DNA of 64,000 nucleotides, taken from Flavobacterium sp. NRK1. Its GTDB lineage: Bacteria > Bacteroidota > Bacteroidia > Flavobacteriales > Flavobacteriaceae. The stretch covers positions 1,829,930 through 1,893,929 of the forward strand of contig NZ_JAMXLA010000001.1 of assembly GCF_024054175.1 (NCBI RefSeq), in the 5' to 3' direction. The notes beneath the pieces are model-generated. The model had not been told where the DNA came from. It did not search any database and worked only from the letters and a program-made list of their open reading frames with translations. Position numbers and translations under genes: made by a program. Of the stretch, positions 26,846-34,946 are shown piece by piece (positions within the stretch are counted from its first letter, which is position 1; the number at the start of each line of letters is the position of its first letter).

Positions 26846-26848
26846 CTG

Positions 26849-26921
26849 TGGTACCTCCAGGAATCGAACCAGGGACACATGGATTTTCAGTCCATTGCTC
26901 TACCAACTGAGCTAAGGTACC
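26849..26921 (-). tRNA. tRNA-Phe (GAA)
   Basis: The minus strand reads GGTACCTTAGCTCAGTTGGT at its 5' end and ends in AGGAGGTACCA; 73 bases, 7-bp acceptor stem GGTACCT/AGGTACC, T-loop GGTTCGATTCC. The anticodon GAA is at 26888-26886, nucleotides 34-36. CCA is not encoded. Confidence 0.97.
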
Positions 26922-27003: not shown

Positions 27004-27004
27004 G

Positions 27005-27077
27005 TGGTACCTCCAGGAATCGAACCAGGGACACATGGATTTTCAGTCCATTGCTCTACCAACTGAGCTAAGGTACC
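27005..27077 (-). tRNA. tRNA-Phe (GAA), second identical copy
   Basis: All 73 bases equal those of the copy at 26849-26921. The anticodon GAA is at 27044-27042. The copies are 83 bases apart and point the same way; this one is nearer to the promoter. Confidence 0.97.
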
Positions 27078-27176: not shown

Positions 27177-27911
27177 ATGCTTTTAGCTGTTGATATAGGA
27201 AATACAAAAATTAAAGCTGCTGTATTTGAGACTGCTGCACTAATTAATAAATTTATTTTTGATAAAAGCGAAGCATTAAAAGAATTTAAAAAAATTTTTA
27301 CTCAATATCCACATATCGATAAAAGTACGCTTTCAATGGTAGGGGAAGCCGAGGCTGAGTTGTTACAGTTACTGGATAGTAAAAGTGAATTGGTAATAAT
27401 AAATCATGATTCCCTGTTTCCGTTTAAAAATAAATATGCAACACCAAAAACTTTAGGTATAGACAGAATGGTTTTATCAGCTGGTGCTGTATTGCAATAT
27501 CCGGGTGTAAACCGCCTTGTTATAGATGCCGGTACCTGCATTACTTATGACTTTACAGATAGTGATGATAACTATTTGGGAGGGGCTATATCGCCGGGTT
27601 TACAATTAAGGTATAATGCTATGCATAATTTTACTGCAAAACTTCCGTTGTTATATCCTGAAATGCCTTCGCACTATATTGGTAACAGTACTGCCAACGC
27701 AATGCATTCAGGCGTTGTAAACGGTGTGTTGCACGAGTTAGAAGGTTTTGTTAAGCAGTATAATGAACAGTATCAGGAGCTAACAATAATATTAACGGGG
27801 GGCGATGCCGAATTTTTGGCTAAAAGATTAAAAAACACCATATTTGCCAATTCAAATTTCTTGTTAGAAAGCTTGAATCTTTTATATCTATATACGATCA
27901 CAAATGATTAA
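27177..27911 (+). CDS. coaX: Type III pantothenate kinase
   Basis: CoaX phosphorylates pantothenate, the first step of coenzyme A synthesis, and is not inhibited by CoA. The 244 residues carry the ASKHA-fold motifs: LAVDIGNTKIKAAVFE (Asp6), TLGIDRMVLSAGA, VIDAGTCITYDF and GGAISPGLQLRYNAM. A weak promoter-like TATCTTTA lies at 27151-27158, divergent from the tRNA-Phe promoter. The stop overlaps the start of the next gene by 8 bases, so coaX heads the envelope operon. Confidence 0.96.
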   Translation: MLLAVDIGNTKIKAAVFETAALINKFIFDKSEALKEFKKIFTQYPHIDKSTLSMVGEAEAELLQLLDSKSELVIINHDSLFPFKNKYATPKTLGIDRMVLSAGAVLQYPGVNRLVIDAGTCITYDFTDSDDNYLGGAISPGLQLRYNAMHNFTAKLPLLYPEMPSHYIGNSTANAMHSGVVNGVLHELEGFVKQYNEQYQELTIILTGGDAEFLAKRLKNTIFANSNFLLESLNLLYLYTITND

Positions 27912-29169
27912 AAAAATTATTGCAGGCATGTGCCTGATTTTCTCAACTGTTGCATTTTCGCAGGACAATAATGCATCTCCTTATTCATATTACGGCGTAG
28001 GTGATGTTAAGTTTAAAGGTACTGTAGAAAACAGGTCTATGGGTGGTTTAGGTATTTTACCGGACAGTACACATGTTAACCTTCAAAATCCGGCTTCATA
28101 CAATGCTCTACAATTTACCACTTATACTGTAGGTGCCAGCAATAAGAATACAAATTTTAAATCAGACTCAGGTACTGACAGTGCCGGAAGAACAACTTTT
28201 GATTATTTGGCCGTATCACTCCCTTTTAATAAAATTGGAGTAGCATTCGGTTTAATGCCTTACACGTCTGTAGGTTATAAAATACAGAACGAAAAAGTGA
28301 AAGATGAAATTAATTATTTAAGGCAATTTGAAGGAAGCGGAGGCATTAACAGGGCTTTTGCCGGAGTATCATACAGAATAACACCAAAATTCAGTGCTGG
28401 TGTTAATTTTCAGTACAATTTTGGTAACATTCAAACAAAATCCATCATAGGTTCTCAGGATGCAGGGATACAATACCCAACAAGAGAATTAAACTACTCT
28501 CATTATGGAGGTGTTTCATTTAATCTGGGTGCTACTTATAAAGGAAAAGTAAACGACAATATAGACTGGTATAGCAGTGTTACCTATACTCCAAAAAGTA
28601 AACTTAATAGTACTACCGATCGTAATTTTGCAGCTATAAGCCTTACAAGCAGCGGTAGTGAAGTTGTAATAGATGAACTTGATGAAAGACGTATAAGAGA
28701 AGATGTAGATATGCCTTCATTATTTACTATAGGAACAGGCTTCGGTCAGGCAAGAAAGTGGTTTGCAGGTGTTGAATACAGTACTCAAAGCAGTAATGCA
28801 ATGAGCAGCCGTTTTGATGCTGTTACAAATGCAGCATTTGAACCTTCTCATACAATATCATTAGGGGGATACTATATTCCTAAATATATGTCATTTACCA
28901 GCTATCTAAGCAGAATAACATACAGGGCGGGACTTAAATTCGAAAAAACAGGACTTGTTATAAATAATGAATCTATTAATGATTTTGCTTTTACCTTAGG
29001 AACAGGTCTTCCTCTTGGAGGTAATTTTGGAGTTTCTAACATTAATTTAGGGCTTGAAGTAGGGAAAAGAGGTACTACCAAAGCTAACCTTATTCAGGAA
29101 AACTATGTAAATATTATGATAAGCCTTTCGCTAAGCGATAGATGGTTTATCAAAAGAAGATACGATTAA
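27904..29169 (+). CDS. Outer-membrane beta-barrel protein (FadL/OmpP1-like)
   Basis: The 421 residues have a signal peptide (IIAGMCLIFSTVAFSQ), then SPYSYYGVGDVKFKG and SMGGLGILPD, an N-terminal pattern seen in FadL-type barrels of Bacteroidota, followed by many amphipathic strands (FSAGVNFQYNFGNIQTK, WFAGVEYSTQSSN) and a final strand ending NIMISLSLSDRWFIKRRYD. The ligand is unknown. It is translationally coupled to coaX and sits upstream of a TPR protein and lptC, so a link to envelope assembly is plausible. It is not likely to be PorV, because no porU is adjacent. Confidence 0.78.
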   Translation: MIKKIIAGMCLIFSTVAFSQDNNASPYSYYGVGDVKFKGTVENRSMGGLGILPDSTHVNLQNPASYNALQFTTYTVGASNKNTNFKSDSGTDSAGRTTFDYLAVSLPFNKIGVAFGLMPYTSVGYKIQNEKVKDEINYLRQFEGSGGINRAFAGVSYRITPKFSAGVNFQYNFGNIQTKSIIGSQDAGIQYPTRELNYSHYGGVSFNLGATYKGKVNDNIDWYSSVTYTPKSKLNSTTDRNFAAISLTSSGSEVVIDELDERRIREDVDMPSLFTIGTGFGQARKWFAGVEYSTQSSNAMSSRFDAVTNAAFEPSHTISLGGYYIPKYMSFTSYLSRITYRAGLKFEKTGLVINNESINDFAFTLGTGLPLGGNFGVSNINLGLEVGKRGTTKANLIQENYVNIMISLSLSDRWFIKRRYD

Positions 29170-29186
29170 TTTAAACTTTTCAGGTT

Positions 29187-30548
29187 ATGAAAACACTATG
29201 GGCTTTTTTTATATGTGTGTTAAGCCTTTCGGCAGCAGCACAGGTTACGTATAAATGCGAAGATAATTTTAAGGTGTTTGAGGGCAGGTATCTTATAAAA
29301 GAATATAATGATGCTTACAAGCTGCTTTCAGAACTTAGAGTAAAATGCCCAAAAGTAAATGAAAACCTTTATGTTTACGGAGAAGCAATACTTAAATATG
29401 AAATTGAAGTAGCACAGACTCCGGAGGAGAGAAAAGCAATGGTTGAAGATCTGGCAGCTCTTTATAACGAACAGTTTGTTAATTTTCCGTCAAGCGGGGC
29501 TGATGTAAAAAAAACACAGCTTCAGTTGGATAACAAGCTGATCACAACTTCAGAAGCTTATAAAGCATTTACCGCTTCTTTTAATAAAAACAGGCAGGCT
29601 TTTATGGATTTCAATTCTATCCTGGCTTATTTTTATATGGTTCTGGATGATTTTAAATCCGGAAAAGGTATGACTGATGAACAGTATTTTGAAAAGTATG
29701 GAGAAATAAGCACTCAGGTTGCTTTTGCTAAGAATAAAATTACCGAAGATAAACAAACTCTCCTGAAAAAAAAGGAAACAGCTATGCTGACTGATGTGGA
29801 AACTCAGTTTGTTGCAGATGCAGAATATATTATCGATGCATTGGATAATGTAGCTGAGGTTATTCAGAAACAAAGCAGGGATTATGTTTCCTGTGAAAAA
29901 CTGGAAGCTTACTATGGCAAAAGCTATGAAGATCATAAAAATGATTATAACTGGATTGATGCTATGGTAAATGCATTATATGATAAGAAATGTTTTAAAT
30001 CTGCACTACTGCAAAAAGGCGCGGTTGCTTTGCATACTATAAAGCCTACTAAAGATACTGCTTATCGCCTGGGCATGATCGGTTTAAAAACAGGCAATAA
30101 AGAAGATGCTTTAAAATACCTGGAGCAATCGGCATCAATGGAGGCAAATTCCGAAAGAAAATCGGATATTTATTATCAGATAGCTTCATCTCATAAAAAT
30201 ACAGATAAAGCGGTTGCTAAAAAATATGTTCAAAAAACTATAACCCTAAATCCTAAAAATGCGCAGGCATATCTTATGCTTGCCGAAATGTATGCAACTG
30301 TTCCTGCAAATGACGAATGCGGACTAAATAATTTTGAACGTAAAACACTTAATTACCTTGCTATTGACACTGCTAAAAAAGCTGAGGTTGCAGAGCCTAA
30401 ATATAAAGCAGCGGTAGCTGCTGCGGTTAAGCGATACGAAAAAAACCTCCCGTCTAAAGAAGAGGCAAAAGCAATGGGAAAAAGAAGGGGCGACGATATT
30501 ACCTTTGGCTGCTGGATAAACGAAAAAGTTACTTTACCTAAATTGTAA
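29187..30548 (+). CDS. Periplasmic TPR-repeat protein
   Basis: The 453 residues start with a signal peptide (LWAFFICVLSLSAAAQ) and are almost wholly helical. TPR-like units are visible near the C-terminus (TAYRLGMIGLKTGNKEDALKY, KAVAKKYVQKTITLNPKNAQAY). Three conserved-looking cysteines occur in YKCEDNFKVFEGR, RVKCPKVNENLY and DKKCFKSALL, which may form disulfides. TPR proteins bind partners; the neighbours are an outer-membrane barrel and lptC, so it may be a periplasmic assembly factor. Confidence 0.8.
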   Translation: MKTLWAFFICVLSLSAAAQVTYKCEDNFKVFEGRYLIKEYNDAYKLLSELRVKCPKVNENLYVYGEAILKYEIEVAQTPEERKAMVEDLAALYNEQFVNFPSSGADVKKTQLQLDNKLITTSEAYKAFTASFNKNRQAFMDFNSILAYFYMVLDDFKSGKGMTDEQYFEKYGEISTQVAFAKNKITEDKQTLLKKKETAMLTDVETQFVADAEYIIDALDNVAEVIQKQSRDYVSCEKLEAYYGKSYEDHKNDYNWIDAMVNALYDKKCFKSALLQKGAVALHTIKPTKDTAYRLGMIGLKTGNKEDALKYLEQSASMEANSERKSDIYYQIASSHKNTDKAVAKKYVQKTITLNPKNAQAYLMLAEMYATVPANDECGLNNFERKTLNYLAIDTAKKAEVAEPKYKAAVAAAVKRYEKNLPSKEEAKAMGKRRGDDITFGCWINEKVTLPKL

Positions 30549-30551
30549 TTA

Positions 30552-31103
30552 ATGAAACTGTATAGAGGCATAGGTATAATAATTATAGCTTTTACATTAT
30601 TGCTGTGCTCATGCGAAAGCAATTTTAAAGATGTGCAGCGCATTAACAGTGTTGCTTTTAGTCCATCGGGAGAAACCGAAAATATAAACTTAAAATATAC
30701 CGATTCTGGCAAGGTTAAAGCTATACTTGTGAGTCCGTTAATGCTGGATTTTTCTAATCTTGAATACGGATTTAATGAATTTCCAAAAGGGGTTCATGTA
30801 ACTTTGTTTGATGTTAATAATAAGAAAAGCTACGTTGAGGCAGACTACGCTATTACTTATGCAAAAACTGATATTATAGATTTGCAGGGTAATGTAAAAA
30901 TAACAAGCAGTGAAGGGCAGGTTCTGGAAACGCAGCAATTATATTATGATCAGAAGAATGAGTGGTTTTATACTGAAAAAAAATTTAAATTTACTGATGG
31001 GAAAGATAGCTATGTAGAGGGTCCCGGTGTAGATTTCAGTAAAGATTTTAAAGTGTTTAATGCCCAGCAGAATAACGGGCTTATTAGTAATGTTGAAGAA
31101 TAA
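30552..31103 (+). CDS. lptC: LPS export protein LptC (lipoprotein form)
   Basis: LptC is the periplasmic bridge that takes lipopolysaccharide from the LptBFG transporter to LptA. The 183 residues show the OstA/LptC beta-jellyroll pattern (YVEADYAITYAKTDIIDLQG, NVKITSSEGQVLETQQLYYD, VEGPGVDFSKDF). In place of the usual membrane helix there is a lipoprotein signal (IIAFTLLLCSC, lipid Cys21), as in many Bacteroidota. It begins 3 bases after the TPR gene. Other lpt genes are not in the window. Confidence 0.9.
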   Translation: MKLYRGIGIIIIAFTLLLCSCESNFKDVQRINSVAFSPSGETENINLKYTDSGKVKAILVSPLMLDFSNLEYGFNEFPKGVHVTLFDVNNKKSYVEADYAITYAKTDIIDLQGNVKITSSEGQVLETQQLYYDQKNEWFYTEKKFKFTDGKDSYVEGPGVDFSKDFKVFNAQQNNGLISNVEE

Positions 31104-31305: not shown

Positions 31306-32571
31306 ATGGAAACAATAACGATAATATTATGTTTGCTCCTTTCGGCCTTTTTTTCAGGGATGGAAATAGCATATATTTCGTCTAATAAAGTTTATCTTGA
31401 GGTAGAGAAAAAACAATCTACCATTATTTCGAAAATCCTTACACGTTTAACAGAAAATCCTATTCAGTTTATTACTTCTATGCTTATAGGTAATACAATT
31501 GCTTTGGTATTGTATTCTTATTTTATTGGTAATGCTGTTATGCGGTGGTTTTTTTCTTCAGCAGATAATGTGCATGCTTTTTATAGCTTACTGCTTCAAA
31601 TTGCAATATCTGCTTTCATACTGTTGTTAACGGCAGAATTTATTCCAAAAATATTTTTTCAGGTATATGCAAATACTTTAATCAAGGTTTTTGCTTTGCC
31701 TGCGTATATGTTTTATTGCCTTTTCTTTTGGGTTTCAAAATTTATTATTGCTATCTCAGATTTTATATTGGTAAACATTCTCCGCACGCAGGGAGATACC
31801 CAAAAAGCTTTTTTTAGCCGTGGCGAATTAGGTACTTATATTACAGAACAGCTTAATGGGGCTGATGTTCAGGAAGAGGTGGATTCTGAAATACAAATAT
31901 TTCAGAATGCGCTGGAATTTTCTGATATGAAAGCCCGTGATATAATGACTCCGAGAACAGAAATTGCTGCAGTTGAAATAAATGATTCAATTTCAGAGTT
32001 AAGGGAGCTTTTTATAGAAACAGGGTATTCTAAAATAATTGTTTATCAGGGCTCAATAGATAATATTGTAGGCTATATTCATTCTTTTGAATTGTTTAAA
32101 AAGCCAAAATCAATTCTTTCAATAATGATAGCTATAGAATATGCCCCGGGAACTATATATATAAAAGAGCTTCTTAACGTGCTTACAAGAAAACGTAAAA
32201 GTATGGCTGTAATTCTGGATGAATACGGGGGTACGGCAGGTATAGTTACAGTTGAAGATATTATAGAAGAGCTTTTTGGTGAAATTGAAGATGAGCATGA
32301 TGAAGAAGAAGAACTTACAGAGGAGGTATTAGCGAACGGAGCTTATCTTTTCTCAGCAAGGCTTGATGTAGAATATATTAATGAAGAATATGATCTGAAT
32401 ATTCCGGAAAGTGATTCTTATGTTACACTTGGAGGCTTTATAGTTCATAATGCTAAAGAAATACCAAAGGCAGGAGAAAAACTTACTTTTGAAAACTTTG
32501 AGATTTTAATTGAACAGGCTTCAAATAAAAAGATAGAGCTTGTAAAAATTGAGCCTTTACAGGATAAATAA
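31306..32571 (+). CDS. CNNM/CBS-domain membrane protein (hemolysin C / CorC family)
   Basis: The 421 residues have a DUF21 (CNNM) transmembrane domain at about 1-175, two CBS domains at about 200-325 (DIMTPRTEIAAVEINDSISE, VILDEYGGTAGIVTVEDIIE) and a C-terminal CorC_HlyC domain (GAYLFSARLDVEYINEE). Related proteins act in magnesium efflux; the name hemolysin is historical. GldE of gliding bacteria has the same build, but gldE sits beside gldD, which is absent here. It follows the lptC group and may be read through to the PpiD gene. Confidence 0.92.
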   Translation: METITIILCLLLSAFFSGMEIAYISSNKVYLEVEKKQSTIISKILTRLTENPIQFITSMLIGNTIALVLYSYFIGNAVMRWFFSSADNVHAFYSLLLQIAISAFILLLTAEFIPKIFFQVYANTLIKVFALPAYMFYCLFFWVSKFIIAISDFILVNILRTQGDTQKAFFSRGELGTYITEQLNGADVQEEVDSEIQIFQNALEFSDMKARDIMTPRTEIAAVEINDSISELRELFIETGYSKIIVYQGSIDNIVGYIHSFELFKKPKSILSIMIAIEYAPGTIYIKELLNVLTRKRKSMAVILDEYGGTAGIVTVEDIIEELFGEIEDEHDEEEELTEEVLANGAYLFSARLDVEYINEEYDLNIPESDSYVTLGGFIVHNAKEIPKAGEKLTFENFEILIEQASNKKIELVKIEPLQDK

Positions 32572-32674: not shown

Positions 32675-34780
32675 ATGGCGGTTTTATCAAAAATTAGGCA
32701 GCGTTCGTTAGTTCTGATACTAGTTATAGGTCTATCATTACTGGCTTTTATAATAGCTGATATTATAAAAAGTGGCGGTTTTGGGGTTTCCCGAAACATA
32801 GGCAGCGTAAACGGTAAAGATATTCCTGTGCAGGATTTTTTACAAAAAGTAAATGATGTACAGGCAAGGCAACAGGGAATTAGCCCTACGCAGGCTGCAA
32901 ATGCTGTATGGAACCAGGAAGTTGATAATATTCTTTTTGAAGAAAGATATGAGAAATCAGGTTTGAGAGTAGGTAAAGATCACATCTTTAACGTATATGC
33001 TCAGGATCCGCAGGTTGCTCAAAATCCTCAGTTTCAGAATGCGCTTGGTAAATTTGACAAAGCTAAATTCAATGAGTTTTTAGTGAACATGAAAACTACA
33101 AATCCTGCTCAATGGCAAATGATTGAGAAAAATAAGGGGCTTGTAGAAAACGCAGCTAAAAAACAACTTTACCTGACAATGGTTAAAGCAGCATTTTTCG
33201 CTACAGACGCCGATGGTAAAGCAAAATACGAAGCTGAAGCAAACAAGGTTACTTTTGATTATGTATTTGTTCCTTACAGTACAATCAATGATGATCAGGT
33301 TAAAGTTTCTGATGAAGAGCTTACGGCTTACATGAAGAAAAACGAAAAGAAATATAAAGCGGAAGCATCCCGCGATCTTGAATATGTATTAATTGAAAAC
33401 AAACCGTCTGCTGCTGATGAAGCTGAGATGAAAAGTCAGATTAATGGTTTGCTAAGTCCGAGGGTGGAGTATAACGATGAGACTAAAAGCAATGATACTA
33501 TTCCGGGATTTGCGAAAGTTACTAATGTTGAAGAGTTTGTAAATAAAAATTCAGACATTAAATATGATTCAACTTATGTAACTAAAAAACAACTTCCTAT
33601 AGAATTTGCTGAGCAAATTTACAATCTTAACAAAGGAGAGGTTTTTGGGCCGTATGTAGATAACGGATATTACAAGCTTACAAGAATGATAGATAAAAAA
33701 GGAAATGCTACTGCAAAAGCAAGCCATATCCTTATTTCTTACAAAGGAAGTAAAGCTCCGGATCCTTCTATAACAAGAACTAAAGAGGAAGCTAAAGCTA
33801 AAGCTGATGACCTTTTAAAACAGGCTAAAGCTAATCCTGATAATTTTGCTGCATTGGCAATGGCTAATACAGATGATCCGGGTTCAAAAAATACAGGTGG
33901 TGAGTATGATAATATCACTCCTAACCAAATGGTTAAGCCTTTTAATGATTTTGTATTCAATAATCCTGTAGGTACTATAGGTGTTGTTGAGACAGAATTT
34001 GGTTACCATGTAATTAAAGTTACCGGTAAAAATGAAGCGGTACAGCTTGCTACTATTGCACAAAGAATTGAGCCGTCTGAGGCTACAACTGATGAGGTAT
34101 TTACCAAAGCCACAAAACTGGAAATGGATGCAGAAGAGAAATCATTTGCAGATCTTACTAAAGATTTGGGTTTAACTGTTGTTCCTGCAAACAAAATTAT
34201 GGCTAACGATGAAAATATTCAGGGGATAGGAAGTCAGAGAGCTATTGTTAAATGGGCTTTTTCTAAAGATGCTAAAGAAGGTGATGTTAAGAAATTTGAT
34301 ATCCCTCAGGGGCATGCAATCGTGAGAGTGAAAGCAATAAACAAAAAAGGACTTCTTTCAATGGAAGAAGCTAAAATTTCTGTATTGCCAATTCTTCGTG
34401 ACGAGAAAAAAGCGGAACTGATCAGAAAGAAGATGGAAGGTACAACTCTTGAGGCTGTAGCTCAAAAAACAGGTTCTACTGTTGCAAATGCAGTTGACGT
34501 TTCTCTTGCTAACCCTACAATTGCAAATGTGGGGCCGGAGCCAAAAGTCGTTGGTAAAGCATTCGGATTGGGTGAAGGAAAAACATCAGGACTTATAGAC
34601 GGTAAGCTGGGTGTATTTATGATAAAAACCAAAACTATTTCTAAAGCGGCTGCGTTGCCTAATTATACTGCCTTTACTGCCAGATTAAATGGTGAAGGAA
34701 GACAGCAGGTACAAGGAAGGCTTTCTGCTGCTCTTAAAGAAAATGCTGATATTGAAGATGACAGATCTAACTTCAATTAA
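32675..34780 (+). CDS. PpiD-like periplasmic peptidyl-prolyl isomerase / chaperone
   Basis: The 701 residues have one N-terminal membrane anchor (LVLILVIGLSLLAFIIADI), a SurA-N/PpiD-type chaperone region starting NIGSVNGKDIPVQDFLQKVN, and a parvulin rotamase domain at about 345-450 (KASHILISYKG, DDPGSKNTGGEYD, VETEFGYHVIKVTGK). PpiD proteins sit at the inner membrane and help newly exported outer-membrane proteins fold. A second PpiC-like segment may be present toward the end. A strong terminator follows, so this is the end of the operon that begins with coaX. Confidence 0.93.
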   Translation: MAVLSKIRQRSLVLILVIGLSLLAFIIADIIKSGGFGVSRNIGSVNGKDIPVQDFLQKVNDVQARQQGISPTQAANAVWNQEVDNILFEERYEKSGLRVGKDHIFNVYAQDPQVAQNPQFQNALGKFDKAKFNEFLVNMKTTNPAQWQMIEKNKGLVENAAKKQLYLTMVKAAFFATDADGKAKYEAEANKVTFDYVFVPYSTINDDQVKVSDEELTAYMKKNEKKYKAEASRDLEYVLIENKPSAADEAEMKSQINGLLSPRVEYNDETKSNDTIPGFAKVTNVEEFVNKNSDIKYDSTYVTKKQLPIEFAEQIYNLNKGEVFGPYVDNGYYKLTRMIDKKGNATAKASHILISYKGSKAPDPSITRTKEEAKAKADDLLKQAKANPDNFAALAMANTDDPGSKNTGGEYDNITPNQMVKPFNDFVFNNPVGTIGVVETEFGYHVIKVTGKNEAVQLATIAQRIEPSEATTDEVFTKATKLEMDAEEKSFADLTKDLGLTVVPANKIMANDENIQGIGSQRAIVKWAFSKDAKEGDVKKFDIPQGHAIVRVKAINKKGLLSMEEAKISVLPILRDEKKAELIRKKMEGTTLEAVAQKTGSTVANAVDVSLANPTIANVGPEPKVVGKAFGLGEGKTSGLIDGKLGVFMIKTKTISKAAALPNYTAFTARLNGEGRQQVQGRLSAALKENADIEDDRSNFN

Positions 34781-34800
34781 GAAATATAAACAAACAAAAG

Positions 34801-34830
34801 AAAAAGCCGGCTATTGCCGGCTTTTTCTTT
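34801..34830 (+). terminator. Terminator after the ppiD-like gene
   Basis: AAAAAGCCGGC and GCCGGCTTTTT (34801-34811, 34816-34826) form a perfect 11-bp stem with a TATT loop, followed by CTTTT. Confidence 0.9.
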
Positions 34831-34946
34831 TAAAATACTTTAGCAATATACTACACATAAGATCCGGCTTTATAAATCTAATGTAAATTAAGAGTTAATA
34901 ATTTGTTATTTATGAATTTGGTAAGAAATTCCTAAAATAAGCTTGC

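Follow-up and report, generated by a model that had tools for sequence, protein, structure and literature searches.

bamG and a tetratricopeptide repeat protein gene form a near-exclusive pair in Bacteroidota: a candidate periplasmic accessory of the BAM complex in Flavobacterium sp. NRK1

The β-barrel assembly machinery (BAM) complex of Bacteroidota was described only in 2025, and BamG is reported as an essential subunit of it in Flavobacterium johnsoniae (PMC12611786). As described in the two reports, BamG is a FadL-related outer-membrane barrel that stands behind BamA, holds BamH (a surface lipoprotein), and anchors the canopy of surface lipoproteins of the complex, and an extended N-terminal tail of BamG threads through the lateral opening of the barrel (PMC12611786, PMC12578637). 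In F. johnsoniae, BamG binds BamA and BamH, and depletion indicates that it is essential for outer-membrane protein insertion (PMC12611786). Homology of BamG to FadL is noted in both papers, and one compares BamG with PorV, the shuttle of the type IX secretion system; BamG is alike in fold class to PorV and to Escherichia coli FadL, but it is reported as a BAM subunit and not as a transporter (PMC12611786, PMC12578637). Here we analyze a 64,000-nucleotide stretch of the Flavobacterium sp. NRK1 genome (the window), in which genes for an outer-membrane barrel, a tetratricopeptide repeat (TPR) protein, and the lipopolysaccharide (LPS) export protein LptC follow one another. A sequence-only reading of this DNA had proposed that the barrel and the TPR protein act with LPS export or outer-membrane lipid balance.

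The barrel encoded in the window is BamG, an already-known BAM subunit. It matches the BamG model NF053685 with 460.1 bits (cut-off, 250) over profile positions 2 to 397 of 397, and it also matches three solved BamG chains, 9n2d_B (E value of 6.5e-116, residues 1 to 420), 9hiv_F (4.4e-38), and 9hjm_F (5.9e-30). The first of these is BamG of F. johnsoniae, and the other two are those of Bacteroides thetaiotaomicron and Porphyromonas gingivalis (PMC12611786, PMC12578637). The match to known BamG (Fjoh_1412, Bt4367, and the three chains) covers nearly the whole length, and nothing distinctive was seen in the window barrel; what is new is the adjoining TPR gene. The earlier description of a "FadL-like barrel" is correct for the fold class, as the papers describe it, but not for the family, as no FadL or Toluene_X match is among the Pfam hits up to an E value of 1. 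BamG itself is widespread, and its model matches 254 of the 296 Bacteroidota genomes in our sample at an E value of ≤0.001 and exceeds the strict cut-off in 115 of the 296. The identity of LptC in the window is confirmed.

The gene directly downstream of bamG encodes a TPR-solenoid protein, and across the 296 genomes the pairing of the two genes is near exclusive. We searched these genomes with a profile (A1) made from an alignment of 35 of 41 TPR matches, with duplicates or near-duplicates (L001, L025, L031, L058, and L059) and one fragment (L079) dropped, and the matches were ranked genome-wide and not by place. A1 matches 129 of the 296 genomes at an E value of ≤1e-10, and 121 of these have a match of ≥140 bits. 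The 140-bit line was chosen after the search result had been seen and excludes 8 genomes; bamG stands beside a weaker or partial TPR match at three of the loci below the line (L204, L206, and L211) but not at L212, and the other 4 were not fetched. In 119 of the 121 genomes above the line, the TPR gene comes directly after bamG and is read from the same strand, which links it genetically to a BAM gene; the window's class accounts for 29 of these genomes (of 30), and 90 (of 91) lie outside it. Outside the class, the gap between the two genes ranges from -181 to 283 bases (86 of 87 loci; 4 more loci outside the class are paired too). One of the two exceptions, genome G270 (L190), has its TPR gene 1.5 kb from a contig end and its listed bamG on another contig; the other, G238, is discussed below. 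In the window's own genus, 29 of 35 further matching genomes were given as loci, of which L230 is the same DNA as L033 and is not counted. The remaining 28 loci have bamG upstream in 27 cases, with the last one cut by a contig end, and lptC downstream in all 28. Since the members of A1 nearly all adjoin bamG, distant relatives elsewhere could be missed. One locus (L091, family f5) has two tandem TPR genes after bamG, and the second TPR copies at L207 to L210 look like lipoproteins, with a cysteine after the signal peptide.

The association with lptC is of a different kind. In our class table (72 of the 73 class genomes, with G041 left out and G292 entered twice), bamG has lptC downstream within 2.5 kb in 62 of 73 loci, either as its immediate neighbor or with the TPR gene between; for five genomes of family f4, the bamG fetched was the best-scoring copy and is possibly a paralogue. 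Of the 30 class genomes that match A1 strongly, 24 have the TPR gene located between bamG and lptC. Five class genomes of one family keep the bamG-TPR pair without an adjoining lptC; in one of the five, G037, the contig ends ~500 bases after the TPR gene. Outside the class, where ~4 kb of flanking DNA was read in both directions (<3 kb downstream at 3 of 87 loci), lptC was found at 0 of 91 TPR loci, while bamG adjoins 90 of the 91. Our profiles for coaX, for the CNNM gene, and for the peptidyl-prolyl isomerase (PPIase) gene of the window also match nothing in these 91 loci. The lptC profile was trained partly on non-class loci (L002 to L030) that had been found by Pfam's model, and its success there is partly circular. 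In family f2 (L064 to L069), the Pfam LptC model has no match in 4 of 6 genomes, and our own profile places lptC immediately behind bamG in each of the 6. Based on these distributions, we conclude that the TPR gene tracks bamG and not lptC.

Sequence and predicted structure both place the TPR protein in a general fold class. Its best Pfam TPR match (TPR_8) has 23.4 bits, just under the cut-off of 25.7, and it matches only generic TPR models. The AlphaFold2 model is a helical solenoid of 20 helices with a short C-terminal hairpin (predicted local distance difference test score [pLDDT], 92.5; predicted template modeling score [pTM], 0.81). The predicted fold, together with TPR matches by sequence and by fold, makes the protein a member of the TPR helical-hairpin solenoids. 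Members of its family match TPR-repeat models of many kinds, and among the 35 aligned proteins these include the envelope models PorW/SprE (4 members), YbgF (7), CpoB (2), Slam TPR (2), and BamD (1; TIGR03302, E value of 4.4e-05). The window protein shares TPR architecture with BamD, PorW/SprE, the N-terminal TPRs of Slam, YbgF, and CpoB, but it matches none of these models at an E value of 0.001.

Inspection of the TPR protein suggests a signal peptide, after which six cysteines follow, and the protein is probably exported and periplasmic. Among 124 relatives (a set that leaves out one protein of <390 amino acids), C378 is present in 121, C442 in 122, P422 in 124, and W443 in 114. The cysteines that had been described as conserved-looking are thus conserved in the case of C378 and C442, but C236 and C269 are present in only 32 relatives each and C24 and C54 in only 18 each. 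The cysteines occur by pair in an all-or-none manner: both members of the 24/54 pair are present in 18 proteins and neither in 106, both members of the 236/269 pair in 32 and neither in 92, and both members of the 378/442 pair in 121 and neither in 2, with a single cysteine in 1. Because the cysteines come as all-or-none pairs, this pattern suggests three disulfides (24-54, 236-269, and 378-442), which would fit an oxidizing periplasm. Within this set of relatives, the C442-W443 hairpin at the C terminus is conserved.

The distribution of the TPR gene is patchy. Matches were found in 36 of the 121 Flavobacterium genomes (among the high-quality ones, in 28 of 102) and, in the family to which G230 belongs, in 44 of 61 genomes, several of the latter matches being partial and lacking the C-terminal part. 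Families f2, f3, f4, f9, and f10 have bamG, and in the class table none of their members has the TPR gene beside it; the phylum sample holds 18 genomes of the window's genus, and 15 of these keep bamG-lptC but lack the TPR gene. We also made a BamG tree of 173 rows, of which 125 have an adjacent TPR gene and 48 do not. On this tree the presence label needs at least 10 changes, compared with a mean of 42 in shuffles, which indicates that the bamG-TPR pair is clustered by descent. This tree over-represents TPR-bearing loci outside the class (mainly those fetched), and by itself it cannot separate gain from loss. Because TPR genes adjoin bamG across lineages outside the class, the distribution is most simply explained by an old pairing followed by repeated loss. 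All 12 of the rows listed as closest to BamG of F. johnsoniae lack the TPR gene, and this species therefore probably lacks it too. It is plausible, at somewhat less than even confidence, that the TPR protein is a hitherto unrecognized periplasmic component or helper of the BamG-type BAM complex, ancestral in origin, that is paired with bamG phylum-wide independently of lptC and has been lost many times, probably including in the lineage of F. johnsoniae, the source of a reference BAM structure. The TPR-lacking Flavobacterium genomes listed, a set that leaves out 65 others, include some of >5 Mb (G358, G360, G362, and G369), and the 36 TPR-bearing genomes are of 1.7 to 4.5 Mb.

In its patchiness, the TPR protein resembles BamM and BamP, which are patchy, dispensable BAM accessories of Flavobacterium or Flavobacteriaceae (PMC12611786). 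BamM differs from it in being reported as a surface lipoprotein of FKBP fold, and in the F. johnsoniae complex only BamD and BamP are reported to be periplasmic or partly periplasmic (PMC12611786). The window genome holds a BamM relative (L218; match to 9n2d_D with an E value of 7.5e-29) in addition to the TPR protein, and we therefore discarded the idea that BamM, as a rule, takes the place of the TPR protein.

In the window, the bamG-TPR pair is part of a longer run of genes on one strand (Table 1). coaX and bamG overlap by 8 bases, and the next two gaps are of 17 and 3 bases, which bears out the tight gene order claimed by the sequence-only reading. The run continues past lptC with a gene for a 63-amino-acid membrane protein, a CNNM gene, and, 103 bases further, a PPIase gene. 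By our own profile, the small membrane protein gene follows lptC in 30 of 30 family f1 loci, window included, and precedes a CNNM or PPIase gene; the CNNM gene is absent between the small membrane protein gene and the PPIase gene in L037, L049, L234, L237, and L240. The order coaX-bamG-TPR-lptC-small membrane protein-CNNM-PPIase is identical in Flavobacterium cerinum, Flavobacterium sp. AG291, and F. rivuli, whose barrels are 70%, 67%, and 61% identical to that of the window, respectively. The best explanation for this cluster is an outer-membrane biogenesis operon centered on bamG. The CNNM protein of the window resembles gliding-associated GldE, with a score well under the cut-off of that family. 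Two tandem tRNA-Phe (GAA) genes (window positions 26848 to 26921 and 27004 to 27077) are directly upstream of the operon on the opposite strand. A promoter scan was uninformative (29 sites versus 30.7 in shuffles).

Table 1. Features of the bamG gene run, with positions counted from the first letter of the window
Feature	Position	Strand	Basis
coaX, type III pantothenate kinase, first gene of the run	27177..27911	+	NF009853, 347.8 bits (cut-off 287); PF03309, 137.2 bits
bamG, outer-membrane barrel subunit of the Bacteroidota BAM complex, 421 aa	27904..29169	+	NF053685; PDB 9n2d_B, 9hiv_F, 9hjm_F
TPR-solenoid protein, 453 aa, gene partner of bamG; apparent signal peptide, C-terminal CWI-type hairpin	29187..30548	+	Weak TPR matches, AlphaFold2, family alignment A1, gene-partner tests, cysteine pairs
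lptC, LPS export ABC transporter periplasmic protein	30552..31103	+	TIGR04409, 70 bits (cut-off 38); PF06835, 40.7 bits (cut-off 21)
Small membrane protein, 63 aa	31107..31298	+	Own profile; no curated family above cut-off
CNNM/CorC-type transporter, GldE-like	31306..32571	+	PF01595, 101 bits; TIGR03520 (GldE), 190.4 bits, below cut-off 376
SurA/PpiD-like peptidyl-prolyl isomerase (PPIase)	32675..34780	+	PF13616, 129.5 bits; PF13623 (SurA_N_2), 104.8 bits
Hairpin and T-run after the last gene of the run, possible terminator	34795..34832	- (as listed by the tool)	17-pair stem; consensus match only

We propose that the TPR protein is an unrecognized periplasmic accessory factor of the BamG-containing BAM complex, an assignment on which our confidence is evenly balanced. 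The exported solenoid, probably stabilized by disulfides, would work in the periplasm with this complex, where it may help to bring client proteins to the periplasmic side of the complex or keep them there, or may help to assemble BamG into the complex. Both the contact with BAM and the mechanism are what we infer from the pairing and the properties of the protein.

Several observations weigh against this assignment. A1 also gives high scores to artificial chains of repeated TPRs, and a match alone is therefore not specific; in the search, the best five candidates per genome were fully scored. In genome G238 (L202), the order is coaX-TPR-lptC-CNNM-PPIase with no bamG between, and the only match to the BamG model in that genome is a long-branch copy on another contig. 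Second TPR copies are present away from any bamG (L203, L207 to L210, and L214), and for this reason we rejected them as partners of BamG2. A specific structural relative of the TPR protein was sought by fold search and rejected, as the search returned generic TPR superhelices only (a list from which the absence of other families is no evidence). When BamG and the TPR protein of F. cerinum were co-folded as one chain, with 38 paired rows of adjoining genes read through in frame, the model was locally confident (pLDDT, 87.1) but had a pTM of 0.50; with this shallow alignment and the other subunits missing, it does not place the two proteins confidently relative to each other, and direct docking is unsupported by it. 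When we looked for BamG positions that vary with the presence of the TPR gene, the best column (E291 in the window) separated the groups only partly (0.75 versus 0 to 0.17), and no clear interface emerged.

The published purifications are also a point against it. As given in the main texts, the BamA purification from F. johnsoniae names BamD, G, H, M, and P (PMC12611786), the purification from B. thetaiotaomicron names BamD, SurA, and BamG to BamK (PMC12578637), and neither names such a TPR protein; the terms "TPR" and "tetratricopeptide" occur 0 times in either main text, supplements aside. For B. thetaiotaomicron, the nearest row to its BamG (L098, 70.8%) bears a TPR gene, and silence in that purification may thus count against a stable subunit. 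No literature was found on the tag BT4366, and neighboring tags lead only to PMC12578637, via Bt4367. The titles and abstract openings among the matches listed hold no report that links a TPR protein to the BamG-type BAM complex. Within Flavobacterium, finally, A1 finds no match in 85 of the 121 genomes (74 of the 102 high-quality ones), which is why we regard the protein as an accessory.

TPR solenoids commonly bind extended peptides, and the protein could be a dedicated assembly or stability factor of the BamG barrel, that is, a private chaperone and not a helper of the finished BAM complex. This is consistent with the pairing with bamG across the phylum sample, with a co-fold with mature BamG that is not confident, and with the lists of co-purifying proteins in the two main texts, in which no such protein is named (PMC12611786, PMC12578637). 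However, many genomes have BamG without a TPR match, which indicates that BamG does not generally need the TPR protein, and G238 keeps the TPR gene without an adjoining bamG; we consider a private chaperone fairly unlikely. A generic TPR fold, a co-fold without confident BamG contact, and second copies away from any bamG would also suit a co-inherited neighbor with an unrelated periplasmic role (for example, in quality control or peptidoglycan) that has been kept in place by operon inertia. Such a neighbor would not readily account for adjacency to bamG in 119 of 121 genomes although the other neighbors differ, and we judge this explanation unlikely.

A role alongside LptC in exporting LPS or balancing the lipids of the outer membrane, as first proposed for the TPR protein of this locus, draws on the position of the TPR gene between bamG and lptC in most class genomes with a strong match, on lptC downstream in every further Flavobacterium locus, and on G238, where the TPR gene and lptC adjoin even without bamG. 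In contrast, lptC is near none of the 91 TPR genes outside the class, where bamG adjoins 90, and most window-genus genomes in the phylum sample keep bamG-lptC without the TPR gene. What survives of that proposal is a conserved envelope-biogenesis cluster; the barrel in it is BamG, the TPR gene tracks bamG, and among our results there is no link of BamG or the TPR protein to LPS export itself. We consider this role very unlikely.

The assignment that we prefer is therefore that of a periplasmic accessory of the BamG-containing BAM complex. What is new in this locus is the TPR protein, whose gene is paired with bamG across the sampled phylum and which is absent, by term search, from the main texts of the two reports on the complex (PMC12611786, PMC12578637). 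It is a testable candidate for a missing periplasmic factor in the assembly of outer-membrane proteins and surface lipoproteins in Bacteroidota.

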